A stretch of 64,000 bases of DNA from Chloroflexota bacterium. GTDB lineage: Bacteria; Chloroflexota; Ktedonobacteria; Ktedonobacterales; Ktedonobacteraceae. A program made the translations under genes and the position numbers. Position 1 is the stretch's first letter. Every line of letters starts with the position of its first letter. The notes under the pieces are model-generated. The model had not been told where the DNA came from, did no database searches, and was given only the letters and a program-made list of their open reading frames with translations. The DNA lies in the NCBI GenBank assembly GCA_902812455.1, contig CADDZH010000009.1, positions 1-64,000 on the forward strand. Direction: 5' to 3'. This document shows positions 15,440-63,197 of the stretch, piece after piece.

Positions 15440-15504
15440 TGTGACCACGCTGTGATAAAAGAACCCCCTTTTGTGACGCTTCAGTGATATCCCCCTGGCA
15501 TAAC
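15440..15504 (+). promoter_or_regulatory. TGTGA-box promoter 1 (osmC operon)
   Basis: Half-sites begin at 15440, 15451, 15472 and 15483 (the last reads AGTGA), giving spacing 11-21-11. The -10-like hexamer CATAAC starts 11 nt after the last half-site; TATAGT at 15505 is an alternative -10. It drives osmC and probably the ArsR and DUF302 genes. Confidence 0.75.
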
Positions 15505-15553
15505 TATAGTAGTGAATGAATATTCGCATAAACGAATAGAAAGGAAGAACATC

Positions 15554-16039
15554 ATGGCTGAACACATGACTGTTACCACGAGGCTAGAGACGGGGATGCG
15601 TTTTGATGCCGAGGCCGGTTCCGGCCATCATGTCACCCTTGATGCAGCAGAGCACAGCGGAGGCCACAACGAGGGCTTTCGCCCAATGGAGTTGCTCTTA
15701 GCTGGCCTATCCGGCTGCACCGGCATGGATGTCATCTCCATCTTGCGCAAGAAGCGCCAGCAGGTGACAGCCTATGAGGTGCATGTAAGCGGAATCCGCG
15801 CGGAAGAGCATCCGATGGTCTTTGTAGAGATTACCGTTGAGCACATCGTCACCGGGTATGGCATTCAACCAGAAGCGGTAGCGCGAGCTATAGAGCTTTC
15901 TAAGGAACGCTACTGTGGCGCAGGTGCCATGCTTGGCAAAGTAGCTCATCTCACACACACTTTCCGCATCATTGATGCTGGGAATGCTCAGGACGGGACT
16001 CTAGCAGACAAGCAACTTATTGCTCCAGCGACTGCCTGA
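15554..16039 (+). CDS. OsmC family peroxiredoxin-like protein
   Basis: A 161-residue cytoplasmic protein that reduces organic or lipid hydroperoxides through paired cysteines. The N-terminal catalytic Cys lies in GLSGCTGMDV (near residue 60) and the second in ERYCGAGAM (near 120), both at the expected places, and THTFRI closes the fold. It most resembles the YhfA-type subgroup. ATG 15554 is chosen because AAAGGAAG precedes it; an upstream in-frame codon would add 14 residues lying in promoter DNA. It is first in a line with an SQR remnant, ArsR and DUF302 genes. Confidence 0.9.
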   Translation: MAEHMTVTTRLETGMRFDAEAGSGHHVTLDAAEHSGGHNEGFRPMELLLAGLSGCTGMDVISILRKKRQQVTAYEVHVSGIRAEEHPMVFVEITVEHIVTGYGIQPEAVARAIELSKERYCGAGAMLGKVAHLTHTFRIIDAGNAQDGTLADKQLIAPATA

Positions 16040-16094
16040 GCATGTATTGGTTCAGTTGCCCACAACTTGGAGTGGGTGACCATAGCATTCTTCC

Positions 16095-19441: not shown

Positions 19442-20455
19442 TTACATCATATCGAAGACCAGGCGAGCCGGAATGCGGGCTTTTTCGATCTCCTCAAAAG
19501 CCTGATTGACATCTTCTAGATGCCGTTTTTCATAGATCACACGCGTCCTGCCGTCCGCATGCAGCTCGAACACTTCCGCCAGATCAAGGCGGGTCCCCAC
19601 AATCGAGCCCACGATCTTGATGCCATTGAGCACAGTCTCGAAGATCGGCAGTTGCATGTAGTTATCGGCAGGCAGCACGACAAAGACCAGAGTGCCGCCG
19701 CGCCGCAAGGCCCGAAACGCCTGTTCAAAAGCGCGGGGCGAGACGGCCAGGCTGATGGCGGCATCCGCGCCGCCCAGCTTCTTGATAGCTTCAACAGGGT
19801 TCTCGCGTGTCCCATTGACGGTATAGTCGGCACCGAGTTGCTTCGCCAGCTCGAGCTTCTCATCCACGAGATCCACCGCCACCACCGAGGCGCCAGCAAT
19901 TTTGGCATATTGCAAAGCCAGGTGGCCCAGCCCGCCAATGCCAAAGATCGCCACCAGATCGCTGGGGCGGGCCCCACTCATCTTCACGGCTTTGTAGGTC
20001 GTGACCCCCGCACAAGTCAAGGGTGCCGCTTCAAAGGGATCGACCCTGGCCGGCACTTTGACCACATAGCGGCCAAAGGCCCTGGTATAGTCGGCATAGC
20101 CCCCATTCATAAAATAGCCGGTATTGATTTGCTGCTCGCACAGCGTCTCCCAGCCAGAGACACAATACTCACACGTGCCACAGGCATAACCAAGCCAGGG
20201 GATAGCCACGCGATCTCCCTCTTTGATCGTTGTGACCCCCGGCCCAACCTGTTCGACAATGCCTACTCCCTCATGGCCGGGAATAAACGGGAGATGCGGC
20301 TTGACGGGCCAATCGCCATGGGCGGCATGGATATCCGTATGGCAGATCCCCGACGTTTCAATCTTAACAATAATTTGCTCTGGCCCAACTTCGGGTTTCG
20401 CGACATCTTCAACGCTCAAAGGTGACGTGAAATTATGAACGACAGCCGCTTTCAT
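19442..20455 (-). CDS. Zinc-dependent alcohol dehydrogenase
   Basis: A 337-residue medium-chain dehydrogenase that interconverts primary alcohols and aldehydes with NAD(H). Catalytic zinc ligands are C38, H61 (with E62) and the later C in PLTCAGVTTYK; the structural zinc lobe C92, C95, C98 and C106 is intact; the Rossmann motif is GIGGLGHLALQYA. It resembles AdhA/AdhP-type ethanol-active enzymes. ATG 20455 has AAAGGAGC upstream. Promoter 2 (TGTGA boxes on the minus strand) precedes it, so it belongs to the regulon; a role in re-oxidising NADH from fermentation is an inference. Confidence 0.93.
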   Translation of the reverse strand: MKAAVVHNFTSPLSVEDVAKPEVGPEQIIVKIETSGICHTDIHAAHGDWPVKPHLPFIPGHEGVGIVEQVGPGVTTIKEGDRVAIPWLGYACGTCEYCVSGWETLCEQQINTGYFMNGGYADYTRAFGRYVVKVPARVDPFEAAPLTCAGVTTYKAVKMSGARPSDLVAIFGIGGLGHLALQYAKIAGASVVAVDLVDEKLELAKQLGADYTVNGTRENPVEAIKKLGGADAAISLAVSPRAFEQAFRALRRGGTLVFVVLPADNYMQLPIFETVLNGIKIVGSIVGTRLDLAEVFELHADGRTRVIYEKRHLEDVNQAFEEIEKARIPARLVFDMM

Positions 20456-20627
20456 GGTGAGTTGCTCCTTTCCCTTTGTGAAACAGGGCGTGTTCCTGCA
20501 AAAGCAGGATATCAACATAACAATGAGTGTGCCTGAGAAGCCTGAGTGAAATGGGGATGTTCACTCCTGCTCCTCTCTGGTTACCACACAAGGACAAGTT
20601 CCAAACGTGTCCCGGTCATCTTCTGCA

Positions 20628-20691
20628 AGTATGCAAGAAGAATCTCACAAAACGCTCACATTTGCTTGTCTTTCATCACAAATCCATCACA
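20628..20691 (-). promoter_or_regulatory. TGTGA-box promoter 2 (adh)
   Basis: On the minus strand, half-sites occupy 20687-20691, 20676-20680, 20656-20660 and 20645-20649 (spacing 11-20-11). The -10 CATACT lies at 20633-20628, 11 nt beyond the last. It is back to back with promoter 3. Confidence 0.8.
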
Positions 20692-20729: not shown

Positions 20730-20794
20730 TGTGATGAGAATGTGAGGTGGTGTAGCCACTTTGTGAGGGCATTGTGAGCAGCAGGTAGTACCCT
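20730..20794 (+). promoter_or_regulatory. TGTGA-box promoter 3 (tandem usp)
   Basis: Four perfect TGTGA half-sites start at 20730, 20741, 20762 and 20773 (11-21-11). A -10-like TACCCT follows after 11 nt; TATAGC at 20799 is an alternative. With promoter 2 it forms a divergent control region. Confidence 0.85.
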
Positions 20795-20944
20795 TCTCTA
20801 TAGCAGAAGAGCGGGGCAGAGAGTGGTGGCAGCAGATGTGAGAAACGAACAAAGCGCTCTGTGAATCCTGGAGAGGTCCAACCCTAAAGCATGAGAGGCT
20901 GGCCAACCGAGGTTAGCCTTCCCGAACGAGAAAGGAATATCAAT

Positions 20945-21934
20945 ATGTTTCAGCATATTCTGGTCCCATTGGATGGCTCAGTCCTATCTGAGCAGGCCAT
21001 CTCTCTGGCAGGGCGTCTTGCCCGCACAACGGGAGGATCGGTGACCCTGTTACGCGTCGTCCGCCCTCCTGACGCCTATGAGTATGAGTTCTCAATGTTG
21101 CGCTCAGCCTCGGTTGAACTCGATTCGAGCGTGCATACGGCCCTGGCAGAGGCCAGGCATTACCTGCAAGGCGTAGCCACTTCCAGCGACCTGTCAGGGA
21201 TCAAGACGAACGTGCTGGCCCGGCTCGGTTGGCCTGCCGCGATGATTGTCGCCGTGGCCAGGACCAGGGACATGGAACTGATTATTATGGGCAGCCGTGG
21301 CCATGCAGGCTTGCAGAACGGTATGCTCGGCAGCGTCGCGCAAGCCGTGACACGCTCTGCTCCGGTGCCGGTGCTGGTCTTGCACCGGCAGGCTACCCCT
21401 GGTGGCCTGCCTTCCTGCATGGAGCGACCCCCGCGGGTGCTCGTGCCCCTGGACGGCTCGCGGCTGGCCGAAGCGGTCATCGAACCTGCTGCACATCTGG
21501 CGGCTGCACTGGCGGCCCCAGGACAAGGAGCCATCCACCTGTTACGGGTCGTCCCACTCGAGCCAGGTTCGCAAGAGATCCTTGACGCGAACACACAAGA
21601 ACGCCCGCTGCGCGAAGCGAAAGCCTACCTTGCCTCAGTAGCAGAAAGGATGCGCCAGGGCATCGCAGCCGGCCTGAAGCTATCAGTGACCTGGTCGGTG
21701 ACGCTAAATAGCGAGATTGCTCAGGCCATCATCAGAGGAGCAGAGGAGGGTGAAGACCTCCGAGGTACAGGCGCGTATGGCGGGTGTGACCTCATCGCCC
21801 TGGCCACCCATGGGCGAGGGGGCTTGCAACTTCTGGAGCTGGGTAGCGTAGCCGGATCCCTTCTTGCTACGACCCGCTTACCTGTGCTCGTTGTCCGCCC
21901 GGAGCGAGCGGCAGTTGAGCAGGGGATGATCTAG
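20945..21934 (+). CDS. Tandem-domain universal stress protein
   Basis: A 329-residue protein with two Usp domains. Domain 1 begins FQHILVPLDGS and ends with the ATP-binding loop GSRGHAGLQNGMLGSVAQAVTRSAPVPVLVL; domain 2 begins RVLVPLDGS and carries THGRGGLQLLELGSVAGSLL. The G-2x-G-9x-G(S/T) pattern is present in both, so ATP binding is expected. Such tandem proteins are induced in dormancy and hypoxia in other bacteria. The start is ATG 20945 with GAAAGGAAT upstream. It is convergent with another usp locus across a three-hairpin element. Confidence 0.93.
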   Translation: MFQHILVPLDGSVLSEQAISLAGRLARTTGGSVTLLRVVRPPDAYEYEFSMLRSASVELDSSVHTALAEARHYLQGVATSSDLSGIKTNVLARLGWPAAMIVAVARTRDMELIIMGSRGHAGLQNGMLGSVAQAVTRSAPVPVLVLHRQATPGGLPSCMERPPRVLVPLDGSRLAEAVIEPAAHLAAALAAPGQGAIHLLRVVPLEPGSQEILDANTQERPLREAKAYLASVAERMRQGIAAGLKLSVTWSVTLNSEIAQAIIRGAEEGEDLRGTGAYGGCDLIALATHGRGGLQLLELGSVAGSLLATTRLPVLVVRPERAAVEQGMI

Positions 21935-22156: not shown

Positions 22157-22765
22157 TTAGAACAGAGCAGGCCAGCTTTCTACTGCCGTCTTTGCCTCTC
22201 CAACTGGGCTTTGATCCGGGGACTCTGCCGCTTTCGCTACTGCTAGCGGGCGCACAATGAAGAGCGGCAGGCTGGTCCCATGCAGCACACGCTCGGTAAC
22301 ACTGCCCAGGACCCAGCGTGGCATACCGCTACGACCATGGGTTGCCATGGCGATCAGGTGATAGCCGCGATACCCGGTCTCTCCTACCTTACTCTCGGCT
22401 TCGGCGGTCTTGATGATTGTTCCCCCCACGTCACTCTCCATTGCTACCATCGAGGTAATCGCGATAGCGCTGCCTTCTGGGATCGCCTGCTGGAGCTTAT
22501 GGGTAATGGCGACGATATAGTCCATGGCTCCCTTTTCCACCCGAGTGATCGTATCAGAGATAGTAGAGCCCTGGACGTTGCCGATCATGAGCGTAGCCGG
22601 CAGGCTGACAACGCGCAGCAGGTGCAGTTCTTTTGGCGCTCCAGGCGCCAGCGACATGAGCAGTTGGACGGTGGGTTCCAGCGCTGCTTCGGCACATTCA
22701 GAGCCATCGAGCGTGACGAGAACGCGCAGTGGAAGTGGATGGACCGTGATCGGCAGGAGCGGCAC
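22157..22765 (-). CDS. Universal stress protein, second half of an amber-split tandem Usp
   Basis: This 202-residue reading frame starts at GTG 22765, in the same frame and only three codons after the TAG ending the gene at 22775-23203. It holds one Usp domain (LRVLVTLDGS to THGRSGMPRWVLGSVTERVLHGTSLPLFIVRP) plus a ~25-residue tail. Compared with the tandem Usp at 20945, the two halves together form one two-domain protein. It could be made by re-initiation (a weak AAGG lies 5 nt before the GTG), by amber readthrough, or not at all. The domain itself shows no damage. Confidence 0.75.
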   Translation of the reverse strand: MPLLPITVHPLPLRVLVTLDGSECAEAALEPTVQLLMSLAPGAPKELHLLRVVSLPATLMIGNVQGSTISDTITRVEKGAMDYIVAITHKLQQAIPEGSAIAITSMVAMESDVGGTIIKTAEAESKVGETGYRGYHLIAMATHGRSGMPRWVLGSVTERVLHGTSLPLFIVRPLAVAKAAESPDQSPVGEAKTAVESWPALF

Positions 22766-22774: not shown

Positions 22775-23203
22775 CTAGCGCAGCACCAGCACCGGCACAG
22801 AGGTGTGGCGAACGATCTTTTCGGCCACACTGCCCAATACCCAGCGTTTGAAGCCACTGTAGCCATGACTGCACAGCACCACCAGGTCTGCTCTATAATC
22901 CTCGACAACTTCGAGCAGTCTCATGGCAGGCGGGCCAGCCTCCACAGCAGTGCTGACTTCGATACCCTTCAGGTCGTCGGATTGCGCGACCTGCTCCAGA
23001 TACCGGCTTGCCTCCTCCTTTTCGTGTTTTTCATCCGGTAGGGCGGCTGGCAAGAACACGTAGGGGGCATAGTTGATCGGACTCTCCACGACGCGCACCA
23101 GGACAATTGACGCAGAAGAGGCGCGGGCAATATGTGCCGTGACGAAGATGGCTCGTTCTGCGCGAGGCGAACCATCCAGTGGCACGAGAATACGCTTAAA
23201 CAC
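22775..23203 (-). CDS. Universal stress protein, first half of an amber-split tandem Usp
   Basis: A 142-residue Usp domain starting at GTG 23203 (AAGGAG 7 nt upstream): VFKRILVPLDGS at the N-terminus and SHGYSGFKRWVLGSVAEKIVRHTSVPVLVLR at the end, with an intact ATP-binding loop. TAG at 22775-22777 ends it exactly at the linker that joins the two domains in the paralog at 20945. An upstream in-frame ATG would extend it by 38 residues, but that region holds promoter 4. A single-domain Usp of this size is normal, so this half is probably functional. Confidence 0.82.
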   Translation of the reverse strand: MFKRILVPLDGSPRAERAIFVTAHIARASSASIVLVRVVESPINYAPYVFLPAALPDEKHEKEEASRYLEQVAQSDDLKGIEVSTAVEAGPPAMRLLEVVEDYRADLVVLCSHGYSGFKRWVLGSVAEKIVRHTSVPVLVLR

Positions 23204-23285
23204 TGTTCTTCTCCTTATAGCTTCTCTGGCTAGCATCTCTGCTACGCCAGGGGACAGAAACATGCTTTCGATTTCTCTGCTATCT

Positions 23286-23350
23286 AGCATAGCCTCGTCC
23301 CGGCACAAACACATCACAACGAGCCAGCTTTATATCACAAGTTGCTCACA
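23286..23350 (-). promoter_or_regulatory. TGTGA-box promoter 4 (split usp)
   Basis: Minus-strand half-sites at 23346, 23335, 23314 and 23303 (plus-strand starts; the last reads TGTGC) give 11-21-11. A -10 TATGCT lies at 23291-23286, after exactly 11 nt. It is divergent from promoter 5. Confidence 0.85.
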
Positions 23351-23411: not shown

Positions 23412-23476
23412 TGTGACCTGCCTGTGTGATCGCCTCCCGTAAATGTGACCATTCTGTGAAGCCAGCACCCTATACT
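23412..23476 (+). promoter_or_regulatory. TGTGA-box promoter 5 (rubrerythrin operon)
   Basis: Half-sites begin at 23412, 23423 (TGTGT), 23444 and 23455, spacing 11-21-11, with a -10 TATACT at 23471-23476 after exactly 11 nt. Confidence 0.87.
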
Positions 23477-23599: not shown

Positions 23600-24019
23600 A
23601 TGACCACAAAGACAGACATCAACCTGGAAAAGGCTATTGCAGGCGAGGCGAAAGCTCGCTTGGAGTATATGGCCTTTGCCATGCAGGCCATGCAAGAGGG
23701 ATATCCACAAATTGCCCAGTTGTTCATGGAGGCAGCGGGCGCGGAGACCATTCATGGCATCAACCACCTGCATGCTGCCAAACAGATTGGCTCGACCTTC
23801 CAGAACCTGGACGAAGCGGCCAACGGGGAAAACTACGAGATTGAAGAGATGTATCCCACTTTCATCCGTGAAGCCGCACAGGAGGGTCGCGATGAGGCCG
23901 CATCCAGCTTCCACCTGGCTTTAGAGCGGGAGAAACATCACCGGGCCATGTTCAAAGAAGCCTTTGAGGAGTTCAAGGCTGGTTTAATGGAGCAGATGGA
24001 AATACCAGTCTCAAAATAA
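23600..24019 (+). CDS. Rubrerythrin-type ferritin-like protein
   Basis: A 139-residue four-helix diiron protein that lacks the C-terminal rubredoxin domain. Iron ligands are suggested by EAKARLEYMAFA (helix 1), EAAGAETIHGINH (helix 2, E-x2-H), and REKHHR plus the preceding Glu residues (helices 3-4). Rubrerythrins reduce hydrogen peroxide, typically under anaerobic or microaerobic conditions, with electrons from a rubredoxin or another reductase. Promoter 5 lies 124 bp upstream. A perfect inverted repeat (24080-24107) follows the stop. Confidence 0.9.
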   Translation: MTTKTDINLEKAIAGEAKARLEYMAFAMQAMQEGYPQIAQLFMEAAGAETIHGINHLHAAKQIGSTFQNLDEAANGENYEIEEMYPTFIREAAQEGRDEAASSFHLALEREKHHRAMFKEAFEEFKAGLMEQMEIPVSK

Positions 24020-27440: not shown

Positions 27441-27500
27441 CGGATTTGTGCTTGTGAAGGCTTCAAATGTGCTCTCTCTGTGAGGTTCATGCCATACACT
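27436..27500 (+). promoter_or_regulatory. TGTGA-box promoter 6
   Basis: Half-sites start at 27436 (CGTGA), 27447 (TGTGC), 27468 (TGTGC) and 27479 (TGTGA): 11-21-11. The -10 TACACT at 27495-27500 follows by 11 nt. The half-sites are degenerate but the geometry is exact. Confidence 0.7.
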
Positions 27501-29060: not shown

Positions 29061-29102
29061 GTGAACACGCCAGCGTCAATCGCAGAGGAGAGAAGCGAGG
29101 AA

Positions 29103-51565: not shown

Positions 51566-52738
51566 TCATGGGGTCATCTCCCCAACATAGTTGGCTGCCG
51601 CACCACCGGCAGTAAACCATAGCTTGCCAGATGGGTCAAGCGTGAGACCGAAGGGTGCACTAGATGGCAGGGAGAGCTGGAAGAACGTCAAGGTTCGCTT
51701 GCCAGGTGAATAGCAGACCAGCATGTTGGCGCCCACATCCACGAACCAGATATGTTCCTGGCGGTCAACGACAAGGTTGTACAGGGCAGGAGGACCACCG
51801 GCAAGCGTTGGCACGGGCAGTTCGATCAAGCTGTCCGTCGCCGGATCAAACATACCCAGCCTGCCGGGTAAGACTTCCGTGAACCAGAGGCGTCCTGCGG
51901 CATCAGTCGCCATCGCATAGACCATGACCTGTGAGTTGGGCAGGTGATAGAGGGTGATATGGTTCGTGAGCGGGTCCAGGCTACCGATCGCACCGCCTGC
52001 CATCTCCCCGAACCAGACCCGTCCGGTAGGCGTGATGGTCAGACTATAGGGAGCTGAAGGAATCCCTGGAGCGGGAGAAGGAACAGGCCACAGGCGGATA
52101 GCGCCACTCCTGGGATCGAGCCGTCCAATTGCTCCAGCGGCTACTGCTGTAAACCAGAGAGAGCCATTGCGATCGAATTGGAGGTCTTGTGGCCCGAGCG
52201 GGCTCCCCTTCCAGGTCCCGAGAGGGAAGATACGAAATGCCTGCTGCCTGGGATCAAAGCGCCCAATGTAGTTGGCATTCTGTTCGGCGAACCAGACATT
52301 TCCCTCGACATCAATGGTCGTGGTCATGATGCCATACCTGGCCTCAGGTGGAGTCCAGTTGGTCACGGCGCCTGTGCGTGAGTTGAGGCGACCGAGACGA
52401 TTGGCATGCATCTCGCCCACCCAGACATTGCCCTGCGCATCCACTGCTGGCTGCATCAAGCCCACATTGGACGTGGAAAAGGTATACAGATGCTCCTGCC
52501 CGGTGCGCACGGTCGTCGAGATGTTGGGTGCCGGGATAACATGCACCCGCACCTGTTGCGCGAACGGAGCTTGGGCTAGAGGGGCAGTCAGAGCGGCCTT
52601 CCCGGCACCCGCAAGAGCACAACCGCCCAAGAAGACGAGCAAGAAGCAGAGGGCCAGCAACGCCACAAAGAAGGTCACTGATTCCCGCCGTCCTCTCGCT
52701 TGCTCGCGAGGTGCCCTGATTCTGTGAGTACCAAACAT
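51566..52738 (-). CDS. Vgb-like NHL/beta-propeller lipoprotein
   Basis: A 390-residue protein. A signal ending LLVFLGGC (lipobox near residues 33-39) shows it is a lipoprotein. The mature part has seven repeats of the type NVWVGEMHANRLGRL..., GNVWFAEQNANYIGRF, GSLWFTAVAAGAIGRL, GRVWFGEMAGGAIGSL, RLWFTEVLPGRLGMF and HIWFVDVGANML, a virginiamycin B lyase-like propeller. The catalytic residues of true Vgb cannot be verified, so an unrelated binding role is as likely. ATG 52738 follows GGGAGAACGAGG. It is cotranscribed with the cupredoxin-like gene upstream. Confidence 0.8.
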   Translation of the reverse strand: MFGTHRIRAPREQARGRRESVTFFVALLALCFLLVFLGGCALAGAGKAALTAPLAQAPFAQQVRVHVIPAPNISTTVRTGQEHLYTFSTSNVGLMQPAVDAQGNVWVGEMHANRLGRLNSRTGAVTNWTPPEARYGIMTTTIDVEGNVWFAEQNANYIGRFDPRQQAFRIFPLGTWKGSPLGPQDLQFDRNGSLWFTAVAAGAIGRLDPRSGAIRLWPVPSPAPGIPSAPYSLTITPTGRVWFGEMAGGAIGSLDPLTNHITLYHLPNSQVMVYAMATDAAGRLWFTEVLPGRLGMFDPATDSLIELPVPTLAGGPPALYNLVVDRQEHIWFVDVGANMLVCYSPGKRTLTFFQLSLPSSAPFGLTLDPSGKLWFTAGGAAANYVGEMTP

Positions 52739-52844
52739 CCTCGTTCTCCCTTTCCCGCTTCGCAAAAGTGCCCCGCTGTCCTTCACATGCTCCATTCCCG
52801 GCTCAGCCATCTTGAACAGGGCAGACCGGTGAGCAAAGCCATCT

Positions 52845-53501
52845 TCATCCCTGAACGGTCAAGGTGCCCAGCATGTATCCCCTGGTCAGCATCGGGCCTT
52901 GCCAGCCACTTGAGCCTGTCCCACAGGGATCAAAACAGCGGAAGTAGTAGGAGCCAGCCGCTCCCGTGTGGAAGGTAAAGCGCACCTCGACATAGGGTTT
53001 GCCAGTCGTCGTATCCCCAGGAATGGGTACATTGATGTTGAGCTGTGGCACGGTAAAGGTATGGGCCACTTTCTCTGGCGCTAAGGCCTTGTAGGCATGC
53101 CCATCCGCGTATGCCATACCACCTACGACGCCCTGCACTGCCGTGAAGGGAGAGCCCTGGGGGAGGGGAGTATCACCCAAATCGTAGTTGCGAATGGTGA
53201 CGGTCACAAGACTATTGGCAGGCACAACCAGGGTGGTGGGCGCATAAGCCGGCCAGTCCTTCTGGTAGCCAGCTTGATTGATGACAATATTCAGGTTCAC
53301 CTGGACATGGCGCTCAACCCGTGCTGCGTGCGCCACCGGCGGCCTCGGGCTTCCTAAAGTGGCTTCAAGGGCGAAATAGACCCCTGTGACGAATGCAATG
53401 GATACCAGGATGCCAACGAAGACTTCTACATACAAGAATGCTAAAGAAGCAAGTTTTTGTTTCCCCCGGCTGCGCGGAGCTGTTCTCGGTAGTTGACTCA
53501 T
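52845..53501 (-). CDS. Membrane-anchored cupredoxin-like protein
   Basis: A 218-residue protein: short basic N-terminus, one transmembrane helix (about residues 24-46), then a cupredoxin-type beta barrel. The C-terminal part (FTFHTGAAGSYYFRCFDPCGTGSSGWQGPMLTRGYMLG) resembles the CuA region of oxidase subunit II, with two Cys four residues apart (CFDPC) and a Met (QGPM), but the second His of CuA is replaced. It may bind mononuclear copper or none. AGGAGGAAAG precedes the ATG; promoter 14, with three repeat pairs, lies upstream. Confidence 0.7.
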   Translation of the reverse strand: MSQLPRTAPRSRGKQKLASLAFLYVEVFVGILVSIAFVTGVYFALEATLGSPRPPVAHAARVERHVQVNLNIVINQAGYQKDWPAYAPTTLVVPANSLVTVTIRNYDLGDTPLPQGSPFTAVQGVVGGMAYADGHAYKALAPEKVAHTFTVPQLNINVPIPGDTTTGKPYVEVRFTFHTGAAGSYYFRCFDPCGTGSSGWQGPMLTRGYMLGTLTVQG

Positions 53502-53554: not shown

Positions 53555-53650
53555 AGCATATTCACCGCGTATCTCAAACACATCACAGCAGCGCCAAAAA
53601 GCATCACATTGCAATCACAGAATTCGGAAACAGGTCACAGCGATATCACA
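53555..53650 (-). promoter_or_regulatory. TGTGA-box promoter 14 (cupredoxin operon), extended
   Basis: Minus-strand half-sites at plus-strand starts 53646, 53635, 53615, 53604, 53583 and 53572 (the last TGAGA), spacing 11-20-11-21-11. The -10 TATGCT at 53560-53555 follows by 11 nt. It is the only site here with three pairs; the outer pair overlaps the 3' end of the DUF6544 gene. Confidence 0.82.
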
Positions 53651-54581: not shown

Positions 54582-55454
54582 CTATGAGGCAACGTGAGCA
54601 GCTACGACCATCTCGGCTTGTTGTGGCTGCTGTGCCGTCCACCAGCCGCGATCCAGCAGGATCACTGCTCCGGCGGCAGCCCACCAGACCAGATCGATCA
54701 GCAGTGCCCACAGCGCGTAGACGGCGCTCGAGGGATAGTTCACCGCAAGCAGGAAGGCGCTTGAGGAGATACACATGTGAAACAGCACGCAAGGGAGCCT
54801 CTTGCTCTGCGTGCGGTTGTACACCCAGGTGATCAAAATGCGCTGCGCCATGAGCAGAATCGGAGCTTGCAGGACAACCAGTACAACGCCCCACCAGCCG
54901 CGATTCCCAAAAGCCCCAAGGTAGTCAGCGTACAGGTGCCAGACACCTCCCCAGAAGAGCCCGACAAGCAGCGCCGCAAGGAGTGGATTGAAACGCCGTT
55001 GCAACTTGGGCAACATGAACCCGCTCCAGCCCATTTCCTCAAAGAAGCCGGAGAAGAGTCCAATCCCGATGGCAGGACCAATCAGCAGCGGGATCGGGCC
55101 TATCGACACTCCCCCTACAGTGTATGCATACAGGACATACATGGCAATCGTGATCAGCGGTGGAATAAGCAAGGTGAGCCACCACCGTCCGACACGCCAC
55201 CGCTTCAGCCGAGCCAGTAGAGCGCTGACGCTTCCCCTACCATCCACGATACGTGTCAGGATAAGTCCGCCCAGGATTGGCCCTGCCAACCCAATAATCA
55301 TCAACACAATCGCTGCCGGGTGCATCGGCGTAGCAAAGAGAGTCCCGATGGGAACCACCGTCAAGAAAAGCGCCCACCAGCTAAACGACCAGAGCATGAC
55401 GAAGGCACAATAGCTCAGAACAGGGTGTTGCTTAATGCGATAACTCAGTTCCAT
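54582..55454 (-). CDS. CPBP family intramembrane metalloprotease
   Basis: A 290-residue membrane protein with about eight hydrophobic segments. The CPBP (Abi) motif is present as EEMGWSGFMLPKL near residue 150, followed by FWGGVWHLYAD, whose His is the expected metal ligand; the Arg normally after the EE pair is Ser here. Members cleave membrane proteins or prenylated substrates; the target is unknown. ATG 55454 follows AAAGGAGC. Promoter 15 lies ~85 bp upstream. Confidence 0.82.
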   Translation of the reverse strand: MELSYRIKQHPVLSYCAFVMLWSFSWWALFLTVVPIGTLFATPMHPAAIVLMIIGLAGPILGGLILTRIVDGRGSVSALLARLKRWRVGRWWLTLLIPPLITIAMYVLYAYTVGGVSIGPIPLLIGPAIGIGLFSGFFEEMGWSGFMLPKLQRRFNPLLAALLVGLFWGGVWHLYADYLGAFGNRGWWGVVLVVLQAPILLMAQRILITWVYNRTQSKRLPCVLFHMCISSSAFLLAVNYPSSAVYALWALLIDLVWWAAAGAVILLDRGWWTAQQPQQAEMVVAAHVAS

Positions 55455-55535
55455 TGTTGTGCTCCTTTTTCTAGCGGAATGCAATTCCATTCTGAATAAC
55501 GTCTTCACATGGAGCACCTTTTTACTCCAGAGGAA

Positions 55536-55600
55536 AGTATCGTCGATTGACCTCACATTGCCATCACAACGGCTCGCTCGATTCTCACAGAATGATCACA
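55536..55600 (-). promoter_or_regulatory. TGTGA-box promoter 15 (CPBP gene)
   Basis: Minus-strand half-sites at plus-strand starts 55596, 55585, 55564 and 55553, spacing 11-21-11, all TGTGA. The -10 GATACT at 55541-55536 follows by 11 nt. It is divergent from promoter 16. Confidence 0.86.
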
Positions 55601-55668: not shown

Positions 55669-55733
55669 TGTGAGTGATTTGAGATAAAATAATCCCTAAT
55701 TGTGATATGCCTGTGAGAGAGATGATGTATATA
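55669..55733 (+). promoter_or_regulatory. TGTGA-box promoter 16 (plastocyanin gene)
   Basis: Half-sites begin at 55669, 55680 (TGAGA), 55701 and 55712, spacing 11-21-11. The -10 TATATA at 55728-55733 follows by 11 nt (TATACT at 55730 overlaps it). Confidence 0.84.
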
Positions 55734-55780: not shown

Positions 55781-56197
55781 ATGCGTAACCGAGCAGTGTG
55801 GTTCTTCGTAGGTGCAATCCTGGTGAGTGTTCTGGCATTGGCCAGCACAGGCATAGCTCTTGCCGCGATGCATGGAGCCTTCGGGACGGCGGAGAGGCCA
55901 GCGGCGCAAGAAGCAGCGGGCGTGGGTGTAACGCACGTGTTCATGCGCAACGACCAGTACTTCCCCTCACGTATCCAGGTAGTCACCGGCACGACCGTGA
56001 CCTGGACCAACCAGGACAACGTCCCTCATAGTGTGATCCTAACCCCTGTGGTGATCTCTTCGACGGCTGATATCTGGGAGAGCGGCCTGCTCAGCCCAGG
56101 GCAGTCCTTCAGCTATACCTTCACCGTACGGGGAACCTTCAAGTACTACTGTTCCGAGCATCCTAATGAGATGATCGGGATAGTAACCGTGACGTAA
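55781..56197 (+). CDS. Secreted plastocyanin-like blue copper protein
   Basis: A 138-residue exported cupredoxin. An N-terminal signal (AVWFFVGAILVSVLALASTGIALA) precedes a domain with type 1 copper ligands His in NVPHSV and Cys, His and Met in YYCSEHPNEM. It resembles amicyanin or plastocyanin, small electron carriers. AGGAGG precedes the ATG. It is controlled by promoter 16 and faces a minus-strand kinase gene. A partner in periplasmic electron transfer cannot be named from sequence. Confidence 0.88.
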   Translation: MRNRAVWFFVGAILVSVLALASTGIALAAMHGAFGTAERPAAQEAAGVGVTHVFMRNDQYFPSRIQVVTGTTVTWTNQDNVPHSVILTPVVISSTADIWESGLLSPGQSFSYTFTVRGTFKYYCSEHPNEMIGIVTVT

Positions 56198-56201: not shown

Positions 56202-58226
56202 TTAGTCGCTCTCCTGCTCAGCAGCAAGGGGGAGTGCCAAGAAGAAGGTCGAGCCTTTGCCTTCTTCTGACTCAAACCAGAGCGCTCCCCCGTGCTGCAC
56301 GACCAGTTCGCGGCTGATGTACAGGCCCAGCCCCGTCCCGCTAATCCCCCAGGCCAGGGCGTTCTCCGCACGCATGAAGCGCCCGAAGATCTGGGCGTGT
56401 TGATGCTCAGGGATGCCGATGCCCCTATCCTGGACACTGATGCGCACAACCCGGCTGGCCGTTTCTTCCAAGATGCTTATGGTGATCGGGCCTCCCTGCG
56501 GGCTGTACTTGATAGCGTTACCGATCAGATTGGTAAGGACTTGCTCGATACGCCCCGGGTCGATGTCTGCCACCACTGCTGCCTGCGCCGTGCGCACCTC
56601 CACCTGGTGCCGCGTCGTCGTCTGCTGCAACTGCGCCGCGACACGCTGTGCCAGGGGGATCATATTGGTTGGTGCCCGCTGCAAGTGCAAGCGCCCGGCC
56701 TGTAAGCGTGTCACGTCCAAGAGTTCCTCCGTAAGCGTGGCCAGGCGGGTTGTGGCCAGCTCGATCTCCTCCAGCGCTTCCTGCTGCCAATCAGCGAGCT
56801 CCGGCCCGCGCCCCCGCGCCGTTTGGACGAGCAGCATATCGGCAAAGCCCTTGAGCGCGGCCAGGGGCGTCCGCAATTCATGGGCCACAATGCCCACAAA
56901 CTCATCCTTGAGCCGTTCGGCTTCTTTGAGGGCGCTGACATCTTGATGCACCACCAGGGCCACACCTTCGCCAGCTCCCCCCTGTACATATTGCCCTGCC
57001 TCCCGCTGCGATGGGCTTCCCAGGCGCGCTCCTGGCAAAGGCACCGCGCTGACCAGTACAGGCAGGCTCGAGCCGCCAGGTTGTCGGATCAACTCCTGCT
57101 GTTGCAAGACCGTCTCTCCCTGCCGCACTGCACGGATGGTCGCATATCGCTCAGGGGCAATGAGTCGCCCTTGCGCATCAAAGATGCCGATGCCGTGCCT
57201 GCTGAGAAACGCCAGCATCGGCTGCTCAACCGGCCACTGTGCTCCCCAGACGCTGGCGGCTGCACGATTGGCGAGCATCAGGCGGGCATCTGGCCCATGC
57301 ACGAGATAGACCCCACTGGGCAAGGCATCCAGCACATCCCGCAGGAAGTCCAGGCGTGCCACCGTCTCGGCATGGGCCGCTTGCTCAGCCTGCTCAAGCT
57401 GGCGGCGCCGGGTGATATTCCGGTTGATCTCCAGGATGGCAACGGGCTGGCCCTGCTCATCGCGCACCAGAGCCCAGCGACTTTCCACGATCACGATGCT
57501 CCCATCCCGGCTAGTATGCACGAGTTCGCCCTCCCAGCGGCCATCGCGCTCAAGCTGGGCATCAATGTCTGAGAGAGCACTGGGGAAACGCGTTTTGAGC
57601 AACGTATGGATGACCCGGCCCTGCGCCTCTTGTGCCGACCAGCCATACAGCTCCTCGGCTCCCTTATTCCAGAAAGTGATGCGACCAACGGGGTCACGCT
57701 CGATGATGGCATCATGCGCGAGATTGATCAGGCAGGCCTGCTGGCGAATCTGCTGTAATTGCTGGAGCCGCTCTCGCTCGGCGGCTCGCTGAGCGCTCAT
57801 ATCGCGAATGGCAGCCAGGACATGCAGCGCCCCATCCAGCAGCACAGGACTCAGGCTGATTTCCACCGGAAATTCGGTGCCGTCCTTGCGCCATCCGGCC
57901 AGGTGCAGCCCTATACCCATCGGACGCGTGCGCGGGGCAGCAAAATAGCGCTTCATATGGGCAGCATGCACCTCACGGAAGCGCGGCGGCAGCAGCAGTT
58001 CGAGTGGCTGCCCTACTAGCTCCTCTCGCGAATAGCCAAAGGCGGTTTCTGCCTGCCTGTTCACCATCGTGATGGCCCCAGCTTGATTGACAACCACCAA
58101 CGCATCAGGCAACACGTTCAGGAACGGAAGAATATCGGCAGAAGAGATGGGGATGGATACTGATGAGGAAGAAGCAAGGCCGTTCTGAGATTTCCGTATG
58201 CCAGTCATTCGTAGATGTTCCTTCAT
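56202..58226 (-). CDS. Multi-PAS sensor histidine kinase
   Basis: A 674-residue cytoplasmic kinase. Three PAS domains are read in order: FLNVLPDALVVVNQAGAITMVN...AAFGYSREELVGQPL; a second (NLAHDAIIERDPVGRITFWNKGAEELYGWSAQEAQG); and a third around FLRDVLDALPSGVYLVHG. The HisKA domain has His near residue 449 (FVGIVAHELRTPLAALKG), and the HATPase domain has NLIGNAIKYSP, DRGIGIP and ISGTGLGLYISREL. No transmembrane segment is seen. ATG 58226 is chosen over 58256 because AGAAGAGG lies close. No response regulator lies beside it, so it may be an orphan or feed another regulator. Confidence 0.9.
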   Translation of the reverse strand: MKEHLRMTGIRKSQNGLASSSSVSIPISSADILPFLNVLPDALVVVNQAGAITMVNRQAETAFGYSREELVGQPLELLLPPRFREVHAAHMKRYFAAPRTRPMGIGLHLAGWRKDGTEFPVEISLSPVLLDGALHVLAAIRDMSAQRAAERERLQQLQQIRQQACLINLAHDAIIERDPVGRITFWNKGAEELYGWSAQEAQGRVIHTLLKTRFPSALSDIDAQLERDGRWEGELVHTSRDGSIVIVESRWALVRDEQGQPVAILEINRNITRRRQLEQAEQAAHAETVARLDFLRDVLDALPSGVYLVHGPDARLMLANRAAASVWGAQWPVEQPMLAFLSRHGIGIFDAQGRLIAPERYATIRAVRQGETVLQQQELIRQPGGSSLPVLVSAVPLPGARLGSPSQREAGQYVQGGAGEGVALVVHQDVSALKEAERLKDEFVGIVAHELRTPLAALKGFADMLLVQTARGRGPELADWQQEALEEIELATTRLATLTEELLDVTRLQAGRLHLQRAPTNMIPLAQRVAAQLQQTTTRHQVEVRTAQAAVVADIDPGRIEQVLTNLIGNAIKYSPQGGPITISILEETASRVVRISVQDRGIGIPEHQHAQIFGRFMRAENALAWGISGTGLGLYISRELVVQHGGALWFESEEGKGSTFFLALPLAAEQESD

Positions 58227-58256
58227 AGTACCTCTTCTGTGCAGTAGGTGAGCCAA

Positions 58257-58570: not shown

Positions 58571-59452
58571 TTATCCAGGGCACCCTGCTCTGCTCACGCG
58601 CGCCACAATAGCGCTCACGTTATCATCGCCTCCGCCTGCCAGGGCCGCCTGAAGAAGTGTACGGGCCGCCTGCGAGGAATCACTCGTAGAGGATGACAAG
58701 ATGGCGGCGATCTGAGGGTCACGCACCATTTCCCACAGCCCATCAGAACAGAGCAGCAGGATATCACCGGGAGCAAGCGCTACCGCATACGTGTCTACCT
58801 CCACGGTCGATTTCTCCCCCAGGCAGCGATAGATGAGATTGCGGTTTGGATGGCTATAGATGTCTTCTGGCTGGATCATCCTTGCCGCTGCCAGGGCGGC
58901 AATCAGCGAGTGATCACGCGTGATCTGTGACAAACCCTCGGGCTGGCGATAGAGGTAGAGCCGGCTATCGCCCACGTGCGCCACATACGCCCTGGCATCG
59001 ACTACCAGTGCTGCCGTCATCGTCGTTCCCATGCGGGTATTCTGCTCCTGATTGCGCTGGTACACCGCCTGGTTAGCTGACTGGACACCTGCTTTGAGCA
59101 GGGGGAGAAAATCCTCCGCCTTCACCGGCTGTGAGTAGAGGAAACGAGCTACATACTCTGCCAGGATATGAACTGCAAGCTGGCTCGCTTCTTGCCCATG
59201 GCCCTGTCCCCCCATGCCATCTGCCACCATGAGCAGGACAAACGGTCGCGGCGGCGCAGAGGGGGTAGAAGGAATAACCCCGCGAGTGATGGAAATGGTA
59301 TCCTCGTTTGGGAGCTGCTTACGTTTTATACCCGGATCAAGAGCGGATCCCACTTGCAATGTGAGTGGTCTCGTATCAACGCTCTTTGTTGGCCTGACCA
59401 GCGTTTGCAATCGTCCCTCTTGTGAGGCCTCATTTACTTGTTGTAGAAGCAT
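58571..59452 (-). CDS. PP2C-type serine/threonine phosphatase
   Basis: A 293-residue phosphatase with metal-dependent PP2C motifs: VADGMGGQGHGQEAS (motif 2), GTTMTAALV, AHVGDSRLYL (motif 6), SDGLWEMV and DNVSAIV near the C-terminus. These Asp residues bind the catalytic metals. Bacterial relatives (Stp/PrpC) reverse Ser/Thr kinase signalling; no Hanks kinase lies in the window. GAAGGAGG precedes the ATG. TGTGA-box promoter 17 lies upstream and is divergent from the MaoC-PTA gene. Confidence 0.92.
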   Translation of the reverse strand: MLLQQVNEASQEGRLQTLVRPTKSVDTRPLTLQVGSALDPGIKRKQLPNEDTISITRGVIPSTPSAPPRPFVLLMVADGMGGQGHGQEASQLAVHILAEYVARFLYSQPVKAEDFLPLLKAGVQSANQAVYQRNQEQNTRMGTTMTAALVVDARAYVAHVGDSRLYLYRQPEGLSQITRDHSLIAALAAARMIQPEDIYSHPNRNLIYRCLGEKSTVEVDTYAVALAPGDILLLCSDGLWEMVRDPQIAAILSSSTSDSSQAARTLLQAALAGGGDDNVSAIVARVSRAGCPG

Positions 59453-59585: not shown

Positions 59586-59650
59586 AGTGTACTGCTCTGG
59601 CCACACAAGACCATCACAAATCAGCCATTTCCTATCACGTAAGCATCACA
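59586..59650 (-). promoter_or_regulatory. TGTGA-box promoter 17 (PP2C gene)
   Basis: Minus-strand half-sites at plus-strand starts 59646, 59635 (CGTGA), 59614 and 59603 (TGTGT): 11-21-11. The -10 TACACT at 59591-59586 follows by 11 nt. Confidence 0.82.
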
Positions 59651-59688: not shown

Positions 59689-59754
59689 TGTGACATATCT
59701 GTGATTTGCCCTTCATCACTTTGTGATTGAATTGTGAGGTGCCGGTGCTATCTT
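59689..59754 (+). promoter_or_regulatory. TGTGA-box promoter 18 (MaoC-PTA gene)
   Basis: Half-sites begin at 59689, 59700, 59722 and 59733, spacing 11-22-11. A -10 TATCTT at 59749-59754 follows by 11 nt; TATAAT at 59759 is another candidate. Confidence 0.84.
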
Positions 59755-59770: not shown

Positions 59771-61189
59771 ATGCAGAAAGCGAGCAGTATACTCATGGAT
59801 ATGATTGAAAATCGGACGTTTGATGAGATCAAGCCGGGTGATACAGCCAGCCTTGTACGTACTCTGAGCAAGGAGGATATCGACCTCTTCGCTCTCATGT
59901 CGGGCGATGTCAACCCTGCCCATGTCGACGAGGAGTATGCCAAAAGCGACATGTTTCACAAGATCATTGCCCATGGCATGTGGGGTGCCTCGCTGATCTC
60001 CACGCTGCTGGGCACGAAGCTTCCCGGCCCCGGCACCATCTATCTCGACCAGACGCTGCACTTCCACCACCCGGTCACGATAGGCGATCGCATCACCGCC
60101 AGCGTGACAGTCACAGCGAAAGAAAGAGATGGGCAGCGGGTCAGCCTGGACTGTCAATGTATCAACCAGCGCGGCGAAGTCGTGATCAGCGGCAGCGCCG
60201 AGGTGATGGCGCCGGCCACCAAGGTGAAACGGCCCAGGACCATCCTGCCTGAGATCCACCTGCATGAACATGGGAACTGGTACCGGCATATGCTTAGCCT
60301 GGCAGCCGGGGTGGCACCGATCCGCATGGCAGTGGTCCATCCGGTGGATAGCAATGTGCTCGTGGGAGCCATCGAGGCGGTCCAGGCCCACCTGATCACC
60401 CCGATCCTGATCGGTCCGGAGCAGCGCATTCGCCAGGTCGCCGAGGCCGAGGACGTTGATCTCTCACCCTATACCATCATTCCGACGGAGCATAGCCATG
60501 CCGCAGCCGAACAAGCCGTAGCCATGGCCCGGGCCGGGGAAGTGGATGCGCTCATGAAAGGGAGCCTGCATACCGATGAACTGATGCATGCTGTGCTCGC
60601 CCCTGGTATCGGTTTGAGGACTGATCGCCGCATGAGCCATGTCTTTATGCTGGATGTGCCCGCCTATCCACGCCCACTCTTCATTACCGATGCCGCCTTG
60701 AATATCTTGCCAGATCTGCCTGCCAAGCGCGATATCGTGCAAAACGCCATTGACCTGGTGCATGCGCTGGGGATTGAGACTCCCAGAGTCGCGATCCTCT
60801 CGGCCGTTGAGATGGTCAATCCCGATCTGCCTTCCACGCTGGATGCGGCAGCGCTCTGCAAGATGGCCGATCGTGGCCAGATCACCGGCGGGGTGGTCGA
60901 TGGCCCGCTGGCCTTTGATAACGCGGTCTCACCGGAGGCCGCTCGTACAAAGGGGATCATCTCCCCGGTGGCCGGTCTGGCCGATATCCTGGTCGTGCCG
61001 GACCTGGAGGCGGGCAACATGCTGGCCAAACAACTGGAGTACCTGGCCGATGCGCAGGCAGCGGGGATCGTCTTGGGCGCGCGCGTCCCGATTGTCCTGA
61101 CCAGCCGGGCCGATAACCCTCTCTCCCACATGGCCTCCTGCGCGCTCGCGTTACTGCTGGTGCAGAGTAAACGGAAGGTGAAGCCATGA
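59771..61189 (+). CDS. Bifunctional MaoC-type hydratase/phosphate acetyl(butyryl)transferase
   Basis: A 472-residue fusion. Residues ~15-150 are a hot-dog MaoC hydratase (GDVNPAHVDEEYA...KIIAHGM, the catalytic Asp and His), and ~165-470 are a phosphotransacetylase/butyryltransferase domain (MKGSLHTDELM, ITDAALNILPDL, VDGPLAFDNAVS). The family is known as bifunctional enoyl-CoA hydratase/phosphate acetyltransferase and occurs in low-oxygen clusters. It would turn acetyl-CoA from PFOR into acetyl phosphate for ATP via acetate kinase (not in the window). The leader is very short: the predicted start of transcription is about 10 nt before the ATG. Confidence 0.9.
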   Translation: MQKASSILMDMIENRTFDEIKPGDTASLVRTLSKEDIDLFALMSGDVNPAHVDEEYAKSDMFHKIIAHGMWGASLISTLLGTKLPGPGTIYLDQTLHFHHPVTIGDRITASVTVTAKERDGQRVSLDCQCINQRGEVVISGSAEVMAPATKVKRPRTILPEIHLHEHGNWYRHMLSLAAGVAPIRMAVVHPVDSNVLVGAIEAVQAHLITPILIGPEQRIRQVAEAEDVDLSPYTIIPTEHSHAAAEQAVAMARAGEVDALMKGSLHTDELMHAVLAPGIGLRTDRRMSHVFMLDVPAYPRPLFITDAALNILPDLPAKRDIVQNAIDLVHALGIETPRVAILSAVEMVNPDLPSTLDAAALCKMADRGQITGGVVDGPLAFDNAVSPEAARTKGIISPVAGLADILVVPDLEAGNMLAKQLEYLADAQAAGIVLGARVPIVLTSRADNPLSHMASCALALLLVQSKRKVKP

Positions 61190-61209
61190 ACAGCAGCAGG
61201 GAGCTATGA

Positions 61210-63142
61210 ATGGACAAGCAAGCCATCGCCGTATTGCCGGCGCAACAGGCGCTTGGGCAGCTACATACTTCGCTCGAAGGGTTGAGTTCGAGCGAAGCCG
61301 AGCAACGTCGTGCGACCTCCGGCCCCAATATTCTCACCAAAAGCAAGCATACAGCGCTGGGCATCCTTGTAAGGCAATTGAAAAGTTCCCTCATTTACCT
61401 GTTAGCCTTTGCCAGTCTCTTCAGCTTTGTCCTCGGCGATCTTTCGGATGGCATCATCATCGCCATCATCCTCGTGATCAACACCTCACTCGGCTTTGTG
61501 CAGGAATACCGCGCAGAGCGAGCTGTCGAAAAGCTCTCTTCCTTTATTCGCAAGAAGGTGGTCGTCAAACGGCTCTCCTCGCTGGAGGATCTCGGCAATA
61601 TTACGCTGCTCTGCACCGATAAAACGGGAACGCTGACCGAGGGGAAGATGCGCATTCAGAAGATCGTGGCAGAGGATCCCCTGCGCTGGCAGCTTTTCGC
61701 CGCTGCCAGCGTCGAGTCTACGGGGGAAAAAGGCGCATTGCAGTCAAACTCCTACGATGCGGCCTTTCTCGCCTACATCTCGCCCGAGATGCAGGAGCAG
61801 GCCAGGGAGTACCGGCAGGTGCAGGCCTTCCCCTTTGATCCAGAGCGGCGCAGGAGATGCGTGGTCCTCGAAGCGAGCAGCACGCACACACGTTACCTGG
61901 TCGTGCTGGGCGCGGTCGAGACCCTGCTTGCGCTCAGCGATGGCCAGGATCAGCAAAAAGAGCAGTATCTCGCCGAAGGGGCTGCGCGACCTGGCCCTGG
62001 CTTATCGCGAGCTACCTGCCTCCAGGCCCATTGACATCCCGCAGTATGAGCAGCAGCTAACTTTTTTGGGTTTTGTCACGCTCGCCGATCCCCTGCGGCC
62101 AACTGCGAAACAGGCCATCGAGCAGGCAGAAAACCTGGGGGTGGCCATCAAAATCCTGAGTGGCGATAGCAGGGAAGTCGCGGCCTACATCGGGAACCAG
62201 ATCGGACTTGGAGGGGATGTTTATACCGGCGATGAACTGGCAAAGATGCCCCCTGACGAACTCGAGCGCGTGGTGAAGAGTTGTAACGTCTTTGCCCGTG
62301 TTTCTCCTGCCCAGAAATATACCATCATTGAGACCCTTAAACGCGATCACGTTGTTGGCTACCAGGGCGATGGCATCAACGATGCCCCGGCGCTCAAACT
62401 GGAGGATGTAGCCCTGGCGGTAGATAGCGCGGCGGACGTGGCCAAAGAAAGCGCCGATATAGTGCTGCTGAACAAGGACCTGGGCGTGATCATCAATGGC
62501 ATTTACGGCGGGCGAGCAATCTTCCTCAATATCGATAAGTACCTGAAATACACCATGGTCGGCAACTTCGGCAATTTGTTTGCCCTGGCTATTCTCTACC
62601 TCCTCTCGCTCAACTTGCCGCTCCTTCCCGTGCAGGTATTGTTAAGCAGTCTGATCACGGATGTCCCCCTGATTACCATCGCTTCCGACAGGGTCGCGAG
62701 CCGGGAGGTGATGAGGCCAGAGCAGTACAATACGCGATCGTTGATGCTGATCTCGCTGGTGCTGGGCTCGTGTACGGCGCTGTTCGAGCTGCTCTACTTT
62801 GCGCTCGTGAGCACCCGGCCACCGTTGTTCGTCCAGACCAACATGTTCCTCTTTCTCACCTTGCTCCAGTTCATTGTCATTGTGTCCATCCGCAACCGTG
62901 ATTTCTTGTGGAGAGGCACAAGGCCATCGAAGCTCTTAGCGACTGCCGTCGTGTTGGCACTGGTCGTCTCGTTTGCGTTACCCTATATCCCGCTCTCAGC
63001 GCACCTGTTCTCGTTTACACCGCTGCCAGGGCCCGAGCTGGCGATCGTCTTCGGGCTGGCCCTGCTCTACCTGGTGGTCCTGGATGTCCTGAAGGTCTGG
63101 TACTACCGGCTCATTGAACGAGAAGCCAGTATCGTGATGTGA
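61210..63142 (+). pseudogene. P-type cation ATPase (CtpF/P2-like), internally deleted and frameshifted
   Basis: The N-terminal part (M1-M2, to SSFIRKK) is joined in frame at VVVKR to LSSLEDLGNITLLCTDKTGTLTEG, the phosphorylation site. In intact relatives ~200 residues lie between them: the actuator domain (TGES) and helices M3-M4 (PEALP). The frame then shifts +1 at a run of four G (61978-61981). The rest reads GDGINDAPALK, the hinge motif, and helices M5-M10 intact. Without actuator and M4 the protein cannot transport ions by the known mechanism. The start ATG 61210 follows GGGAG and lies 20 bp after the MaoC-PTA gene. Confidence 0.88.
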
Positions 63143-63197
63143 TTGTGACAGTCGGGCCAGGGTATGTGACAGCAATGTGACGCCTGGGCTCTATTCT
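63133..63197 (+). promoter_or_regulatory. TGTGA-box promoter 19 (truncated usp)
   Basis: Half-sites begin at 63133 (CGTGA), 63144, 63165 and 63176: 11-21-11. The -10 TATTCT at 63192-63197 follows by 11 nt. The first half-site overlaps the end of the ATPase pseudogene. Confidence 0.84.

Follow-up and report, generated by a model that had tools for sequence, protein, structure and literature searches.

A four-repeat TGTGA box marks likely promoters of a probable low-oxygen and energy-stress regulon in Ktedonobacteria

Introduction

In Escherichia coli, the pho box with its consensus half-site TGTCA adjoins the −10 element in place of a −35 element, and arrays of sites for the response regulator PhoB keep an 11- or 22-bp register. 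The PhoB effector-domain dimer is reported to bind the direct repeats of the pho box with tandem symmetry and has been modelled touching RNA polymerase subunits (PMC3348028). For PhoP of Mycobacterium tuberculosis, a box of 7-bp direct repeats with the motif TCACAGC and a strict 4-bp spacer (11-bp period) is described, with three or four motifs in a row also bound (PMC4832192); like PhoB, PhoP is said there to bind direct repeats as a tandem head-to-tail dimer (PMC4832192, PMC3348028). Here we analyse a 64,000-nt stretch of a Ktedonobacteraceae genome (Chloroflexota; contig CADDZH010000009.1, positions 1 to 64,000; hereafter the window), in which a box of four directly repeated TGTGA half-sites, usually followed at a fixed distance by a −10-like hexamer, occurs 19 times.

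A further point of comparison is DosR/DevR of M. tuberculosis, a member of the NarL/LuxR family. Its regulon is reported to comprise universal stress proteins, nitroreductases, and redox and heat-shock proteins, with DosT and DevS as sensors; the same source describes an island of Streptomyces coelicolor in which numerous binding sites surround the regulator gene osdR, and the OsdR sites in its Table 1 are GC-rich near-palindromes (PMC5069765). For the locus studied here, we put at about three in four the probability that the 19 boxes are promoters dependent on an activator, namely an OmpR-type response regulator that is encoded in the window and, acting as two dimers, replaces the −35 element and switches on a low-oxygen/energy-stress regulon.

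Results

A four-repeat box recurs in the window

Four TGTGA half-sites starting at 0, 11, 31–33 and 42–44, each with at most one change, were matched 20 times in the window. Two minus-strand matches (53650 and 53619) overlap, and a −10 is present only at 53619, which leaves 19 distinct boxes, all within the 48-kb stretch 15440–63197. The spacing is 11-21-11 in 16 sites, making TGTGA at 0/11/32/43 the main form of the box; the middle step is 20 at 20691(−) and 44569(−), and 22 at 59689(+). Among 60 dinucleotide shuffles of the window, no matches were obtained at up to three total mismatches and a mean of 0.03 at up to four, compared with the 20 observed. When 735 three-spacing combinations were tried, 11-21-11 ranked first with 16 matches (median 0), and exact TGTGA pairs occur 21 times at offset 11 and at most twice at offsets 5–10 and 12–18. 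The identical layout built from TGTAA gave one match.

A hexamer of the form TAnnnT lies exactly 11 nt past the last half-site in 15 of the 19 boxes (background 0.7%), and at any other offset from 0 to 39 in at most two; the remaining four boxes carry CATAAC, CATACT, GATACT and TATATA. Wherever the proximal pair of half-sites is accompanied by TAnnnT, the distal pair is present too (15/15). On these patterns, the 19 sites are likely promoters. They are listed with their hexamers and the genes that follow:

15440–15504, plus strand: box, −10-like CATAAC, before OsmC-like gene 15512–16039
20628–20691, minus strand: box with middle step 20, CATACT, before alcohol dehydrogenase 19442–20518(−)
20730–20794, plus strand: box, TACCCT, before universal stress protein 20891–21934
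23286–23350, minus strand: box, TATGCT, before universal stress protein genes 22775–23263(−) and 22157–22765(−)
23412–23476, plus strand: box, TATACT, before rubrerythrin 23600–24019
27436–27500, plus strand: box, TACACT, before 27551–28042 (no Pfam match)
30280–30344, plus strand: box, TACACT, before small open reading frame (ORF) 30393–30653 (no Pfam match)
31963–32027, plus strand: box, TATCCT, before 32036–32302, then CBS-domain gene 32321–33082 and a histone-deacetylase-like gene
38083–38147, minus strand: box, TATGGT, upstream of DUF4386 gene 36916–37821(−)
38432–38496, plus strand: box, TAAGAT, before ferredoxin/FAD oxidoreductase 38605–40581
44506–44569, minus strand: box with middle step 20, TATAGT, before the kinase-regulator operon
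44905–44969, minus strand: box, TACGCT, before small ORF 44620–44898(−)
45094–45158, plus strand: box, TATGCT, before pyruvate:ferredoxin oxidoreductase 45216–48866
53555–53619, minus strand: box, TATGCT, before 52845–53501(−) and Vgb-lyase-family gene 51566–52810(−)
55536–55600, minus strand: box, GATACT, before CAAX-protease-like gene 54582–55517(−)
55669–55733, plus strand: box, TATATA, before cupredoxin-like gene 55781–56197
59586–59650, minus strand: box, TACACT, before PP2C phosphatase 58571–59452(−), with kinase 56202–58256 further downstream
59689–59754, plus strand: box with middle step 22, TATCTT, before fused MaoC-phosphotransacetylase 59771–61189
63133–63197, plus strand: box, TATTCT

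No ORF of at least 40 codons starts within 160 nt past the last of these (63133–63197); the gene served by this box may be located farther on or past the end of the window.

The box is widespread in Ktedonobacteria

Genomes were searched with the repeats alone, leaving out the −10 and allowing at most two mismatches over the 20 positions. Of 400 Chloroflexota genomes drawn, 49 contain a match, namely 41 of the 47 Ktedonobacteria (hereafter the class; 229 sites from 174 regions) and 8 of the 353 others; the reversed pattern was found in 0 of the 47 class genomes. With gene calls in the relatives made by a longest-ORF heuristic, 201 of the 229 sites fall outside ORFs, whereas 79% of random positions in the same DNA fall inside, and a same-strand gene starts within 500 nt of the site in 186 cases (median 91 nt). 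Some relatives show clustering comparable to that in the window and others do not: a second site is found less than 30 kb away for 15 of the 16 intergenic sites of G016, against an expectation of 2.4, and for 0/4 in each of G021 and G029.

To train a model (R1), we started from the 137 of the 229 sites that combine TAnnnT at +59 with a position outside ORFs and chose 105 of them, dropping near-duplicates and allowing no genome more than six sites. R1 matches occur in 40 of the 47 class genomes, where R1 counts are partly circular; the search of the window, for which R1 had been trained on relatives alone, is not. There, 22 matches reached E ≤ 1, and each of them lies on one of the 19 boxes or touches one; one match falls just upstream of the 53619 site, inside the overlapping 53650 match. 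Owing to their middle steps of 22 and 20, the 59689 and 20691 boxes were recovered only in pieces. In the first 15 kb, neither the pattern scan nor R1 found a box, and the genes are of a housekeeping kind (sigma-70, release factor, SRP54-type GTPase, acetyl-CoA carboxylase). A tRNA-Leu gene (15303–15385) ends 54 nt ahead of the first box, and G+C rises there from 0.53 to 0.57. A genomic island whose right end lies past the window is a possible explanation of the regulon cluster; a search for copies of this tRNA gene as a sign of integration gave no exact repeat of 12 nt or more in the window.

Nine class matches lie in loci with a different OmpR-type regulator that is 42–44% identical to that of the window (L307, L311, L314, L317, L322, L326, L230, L168 and L338). 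The nine remain part of the 229 throughout. Such box-like repeats may represent either coding DNA that is conserved or a box of a second type.

Half-sites before a fixed −10 occupy the −35 position

A logo of the 229 class sites shows YTGTGAY at each half-site, an unconserved middle and no conserved −35, the usual position of which is occupied by the third and fourth half-sites. At +59 to +64, starting exactly 11 nt past the last repeat, it shows a −10 consensus TATGCT (T74 A87 T64 G43 C53 T88%). The search pattern did not include this hexamer, so that finding it provides independent confirmation. TAnnnT stands at +59 in 152 of 229 sites, and no other offset between 45 and 84 has it in more than 11; in the non-redundant set the figures are 114 of 163 and, for the next best offset, 9. 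A cryptic central half-site was sought at offsets 16–28, and at most 8 of the 163 non-redundant sites match TGTGA (up to one change) anywhere there. As judged from the logo, the box sits close upstream of the −10 and would replace the −35, in the manner of OmpR/PhoB-type sites.

The sequence-only reading had put forward 19 promoters with this layout (three with a step of 20 or 22), a −10-like hexamer exactly 11 nt on, no box in the first 15 kb and no need of a −35. The first three agree with our counts, the hexamer in the relatives as well as in the window, and the logo supports the fourth.

In boxes 15440, 31963 and 44969, the start codon follows just 6–8 nt past the −10 position, which suggests leaderless transcripts; among class sites with a −10, a start codon lies 4–12 nt after the hexamer in 9 of 131.

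The architecture resembles that of PhoB in its head-to-tail half-sites in an 11-bp register, for which a winged-helix response regulator is likewise the candidate binder. Unlike in the pho box, the half-site is YTGTGAY (TGTCA in the same layout has 0 window matches against 20 for TGTGA; the class sites, having been searched as TGTGA, are no test of TGTCA), two boxes are set a constant 32 bp apart and the middle is unconserved, and the gene content differs. With the described M. tuberculosis PhoP box it shares the half-site, as TCACAGC reads GCTGTGA on the other strand and contains TGTGA; the further PhoP motifs are reported to keep the 4-bp spacer, whereas here the step from the second to the third half-site is 21 nt.

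An OmpR-type response regulator accompanies the box

The window encodes one candidate binder and two candidate sensors:

42158–42886, minus strand: OmpR-type response regulator, predicted binder of the boxes
42923–44434, minus strand: histidine kinase in the same operon as the regulator, sensor region weakly GAF-like
56202–58256, minus strand: histidine kinase with a FixL-like PAS domain, possible second sensor

The regulator combines a receiver (Response_reg, 6.3e-34) with a winged-helix domain (Trans_reg_C, 2.4e-27) and lies side by side with kinase 42923–44434. It likely autoregulates, because its own operon is headed by box 44569(−). Among the best 25 of the 102 NCBIfam models that it matched, none is passed at its curated cut-off; by sequence, RegX3 (196 bits) is a closer match for it than PhoP (168 bits). 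Homologs in Ktedonobacteria are up to 82% identical, and its ortholog clade (52 genes in 37 of the 47 class genomes) scores 324–429 bits, compared with at most 260 for the next response regulators in the class. The recognition-helix core L-Q-V-[NS]-[IV]-N-R-L-R is found in 24 of 24 aligned orthologs and in none of four aligned paralogs.

Boxes and orthologs go together. Genomes with an ortholog (37) carry a mean of 6.0 boxes and those without (10) a mean of 0.7 (Mann-Whitney p = 2e-5), and of the sites with TAnnnT at +59, 151 are in ortholog-bearing genomes and one in those without. R1, itself trained on such sites, gives mean counts of 10.8 and 1.1. A box lies within 2 kb of 23 of the 52 orthologs, where 0.25 would be expected for randomly placed boxes, and within 5 kb of 28. 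On this evidence the boxes are likely bound by regulator 42158–42886.

Regulon content points to low oxygen and energy stress

In the window, box-headed genes encode an OsmC-like protein, alcohol dehydrogenase, universal stress proteins (on both strands), rubrerythrin, ferredoxin/FAD oxidoreductase, pyruvate:ferredoxin oxidoreductase, a cupredoxin-like protein, a CAAX protease-like protein, a PP2C phosphatase, MaoC-phosphotransacetylase and the regulator operon itself. In the class, the 186 downstream genes were scanned as batches of 94 and 92 proteins. The tallies, which cover the 25 commonest of 78 and of 61 Pfam families, include Usp (27), phosphoketolase (at least 12), DoxX (11), multicopper oxidase (at least 6), P-type ATPase (5), Hsp20 (at least 4), cytochrome bd (4) and pyruvate:ferredoxin oxidoreductase (3). 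The regulon is probably a low-oxygen/energy-stress programme.

Kinase 56202–58256 lies downstream of the box-headed PP2C gene. When its first PAS domain is compared with PDB structures, the heme-PAS oxygen sensors FixL and DosP lead the matches, and one other multi-sensor kinase (10jx) ranks second. In the alignment, 8 of 8 sequences keep the proximal-histidine position of FixL, reported as His194 for S. meliloti (PMC10765370); the distal FixL residues differ. In G045, G034 (two loci), G037 and G002, relatives of the kinase lie in the same locus as the regulator. For the sensor region of kinase 42923–44434, no Pfam match was found, and a fold search with an N-terminal model (mean predicted local distance difference test score 68) gave nothing at E ≤ 0.001, the best hit being a GAF domain at 0.011. 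Oxygen or redox sensing by the system is our prediction.

As in the described DosR/DevR and OsdR systems, a two-component regulator stands inside an island holding many of its own sites (predicted ones here), with universal stress proteins, alcohol dehydrogenase, and redox and heat-shock genes. M. tuberculosis is described as having more than one oxygen-responsive kinase, and here there are two candidates. In contrast to DosR/DevR and OsdR, the regulator is of the OmpR type and the sites are direct repeats, not palindromes. The likeness is one of function, not of descent.

Three further gene regions of the window are recorded here. Behind the box-headed gene 52845–53501 lies a virginiamycin B lyase-family protein (51566–52810; Vgb_lyase, 2.2e-63). 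A rubrerythrin-VIT1 type ORF (29013–29732) meets a TGA (29730–29732) after 52 of the 214 VIT1 model positions, and its frame is open again at 29739–30236. In region 61206–63142, similarity to a cation-transporting P-type ATPase is limited to its C-terminal part (61757–63142); longer P-type ATPases lie behind the same box in some relatives (e.g., L237:3070–5676).

Discussion

We propose that the OmpR-type regulator, predicted to be the product of 42158–42886, would bind the box as two head-to-tail dimers 32 bp apart, with a single tandem dimer on each 11-bp half-site pair, after the pattern of PhoB and of PhoP from M. tuberculosis. The proximal dimer would contact sigma and take over the −35 contact, and the distal dimer, about three turns away, would aid from the same DNA face by stabilising or extending that contact; as 32 bp is close to three turns, both dimers would face the same side. 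Because the distal box is constantly present in the window, both boxes appear to be needed. Binding would activate rather than repress, and the input would be oxygen or redox, received through the GAF-like kinase 42923–44434, the FixL-like PAS kinase 56202–58256 or both. The identity of the binder, the arrangement of the dimers, activation and the oxygen or redox input are what we infer here.

Other explanations were weighed against this proposal. The best of them holds that the regulon is a general or phosphate-type (PhoB-like) stress regulon unrelated to oxygen: TGTGA is one base from the pho-box TGTCA, and the architecture is PhoB-like. We nevertheless consider it improbable, as the PhoB equivalog model gives the regulator 207 bits, below its cut-off of 296, and no phosphate transport family is among the 25 commonest of the 78 and 61 downstream families. 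Slightly less probable still is that the same regulator acts as a repressor or dual regulator, with half-sites over the −35 region blocking RNA polymerase until a signal is lost. OmpR-family proteins can repress, and the third and fourth half-sites do sit at the −35 position; without a conserved −35, however, the promoter would be weak unless an activator were present, and a fixed 11-nt gap to the −10 is needed by a sigma-contacting activator and not by a repressor.

A regulator of the CRP/FNR type would fit the half-site itself, TGTGA being the classic CRP half-site, and HTH_Crp_2 proteins are found in 47 of 47 class genomes. CRP/FNR dimers, however, read inverted repeats, whereas the repeats here are direct, with no exact inverted pair (TGTGA-N6-TCACA, offset 11) in the window. 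The family is also present in 10 genomes that are almost free of boxes, so that its presence is not predictive, and 3 of 117 listed HTH_Crp_2 places lie within 5 kb of a box, compared with 28 of 52 for the response regulator. Given the direct repeats and a family that occurs in all 47 genomes whatever their number of boxes, we rejected CRP/FNR as the binder, a role that is very improbable for it. The many copies clustered in one region might suggest that the boxes, instead of being promoters, are repeated elements such as mobile or recombination sites; we consider this extremely improbable, since the spacers between half-sites are unconserved and the copies thus not related as repeats, the −10 is fixed, and a same-strand gene follows within 500 nt in 186 of 229 class sites.

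Several observations weigh against activation of an oxygen-related regulon by this regulator or narrow its basis. TAnnnT at +59 is missing from 77 of the 229 class sites, 28 of the 229 lie within ORFs, and with three mismatches allowed in three genomes the reversed control gave one match beside 25 forward ones. Within 5 kb, 24 of the 52 orthologs have no box at up to two mismatches; one genome (G047) has a site with a −10 yet no regulator, and another (G010) has the regulator and no box match. Absence of the ortholog from ten genomes can be explained by genome incompleteness, genomes of the same genus are not independent, and in a clustered regulon co-localisation does not fully single out the regulator among the other genes. 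The case for an oxygen signal consists only of gene content and PAS resemblance, with the distal FixL residues not kept.

Outside the class, weaker relatives of the regulator (E ≤ 1e-75) occur in at least 19 of the 353 genomes. From these 19 genomes we read ten loci, comprising nine of the best-scoring relatives and G170. The distant relatives are 54–60% identical, and in 5 of the 10 loci a four-half-site box lies downstream of the regulator on the same strand (E ≤ 0.0056), at a distance of at most 0.3 kb in L339, L342, L344 and L345 and of 1.1 kb in L340; as G170 had been picked for its known box and the match in G197 was known, the unbiased count is 3 of the other 8. To the points just listed must be added that these five boxes match the model only to position 54–57, without the −10 at +59, and that the genome-level overlap of boxes and regulator relatives outside the class is weak (2/8, p = 0.06).

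The sequence-only reading had assigned the whole region to one OmpR/PhoB-type regulator. Co-distribution and co-localisation with one response regulator clade favour this, with the qualification that the regulon is scattered or clustered genome-wide across the class and not confined to one region. It had also proposed a comparison with genes and shuffled DNA, for which the relatives (201 of 229 sites outside ORFs) and the shuffled window, from which the pattern is absent, gave the outcome expected of promoters. Its claim of a new architecture holds in the sense of a variant: OmpR/PhoB sites are already known to place direct repeats of 11-bp register where a −35 would stand, and the second box, 32 bp upstream at a fixed gap, is new. 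The fixed two-box 11-21-11 layout and the class-wide regulon look new to us; judged by their titles and abstract openings, the papers that our literature searches on Ktedonobacteria/Chloroflexi promoters, response regulators and two-component regulons brought up describe no such promoter.

More broadly, and at somewhat less than even odds, the whole class would run a DosR-like hypoxia/dormancy programme through an unrelated OmpR-type regulator and a class of promoter not described before, at which an obligate four-protomer activator made of two tandem dimers, three turns apart, replaces the −35; the pair of regulator and box would then be older than the class and shared with other Chloroflexota. 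In conclusion, one pattern would predict promoters, transcription starts and target genes from sequence alone in a little-studied class, and the boxes would offer a natural test system for how two spaced activator dimers cooperate at a promoter lacking a −35. The Ktedonobacteria may hold a second, separately built version of the actinobacterial hypoxia/dormancy regulon.

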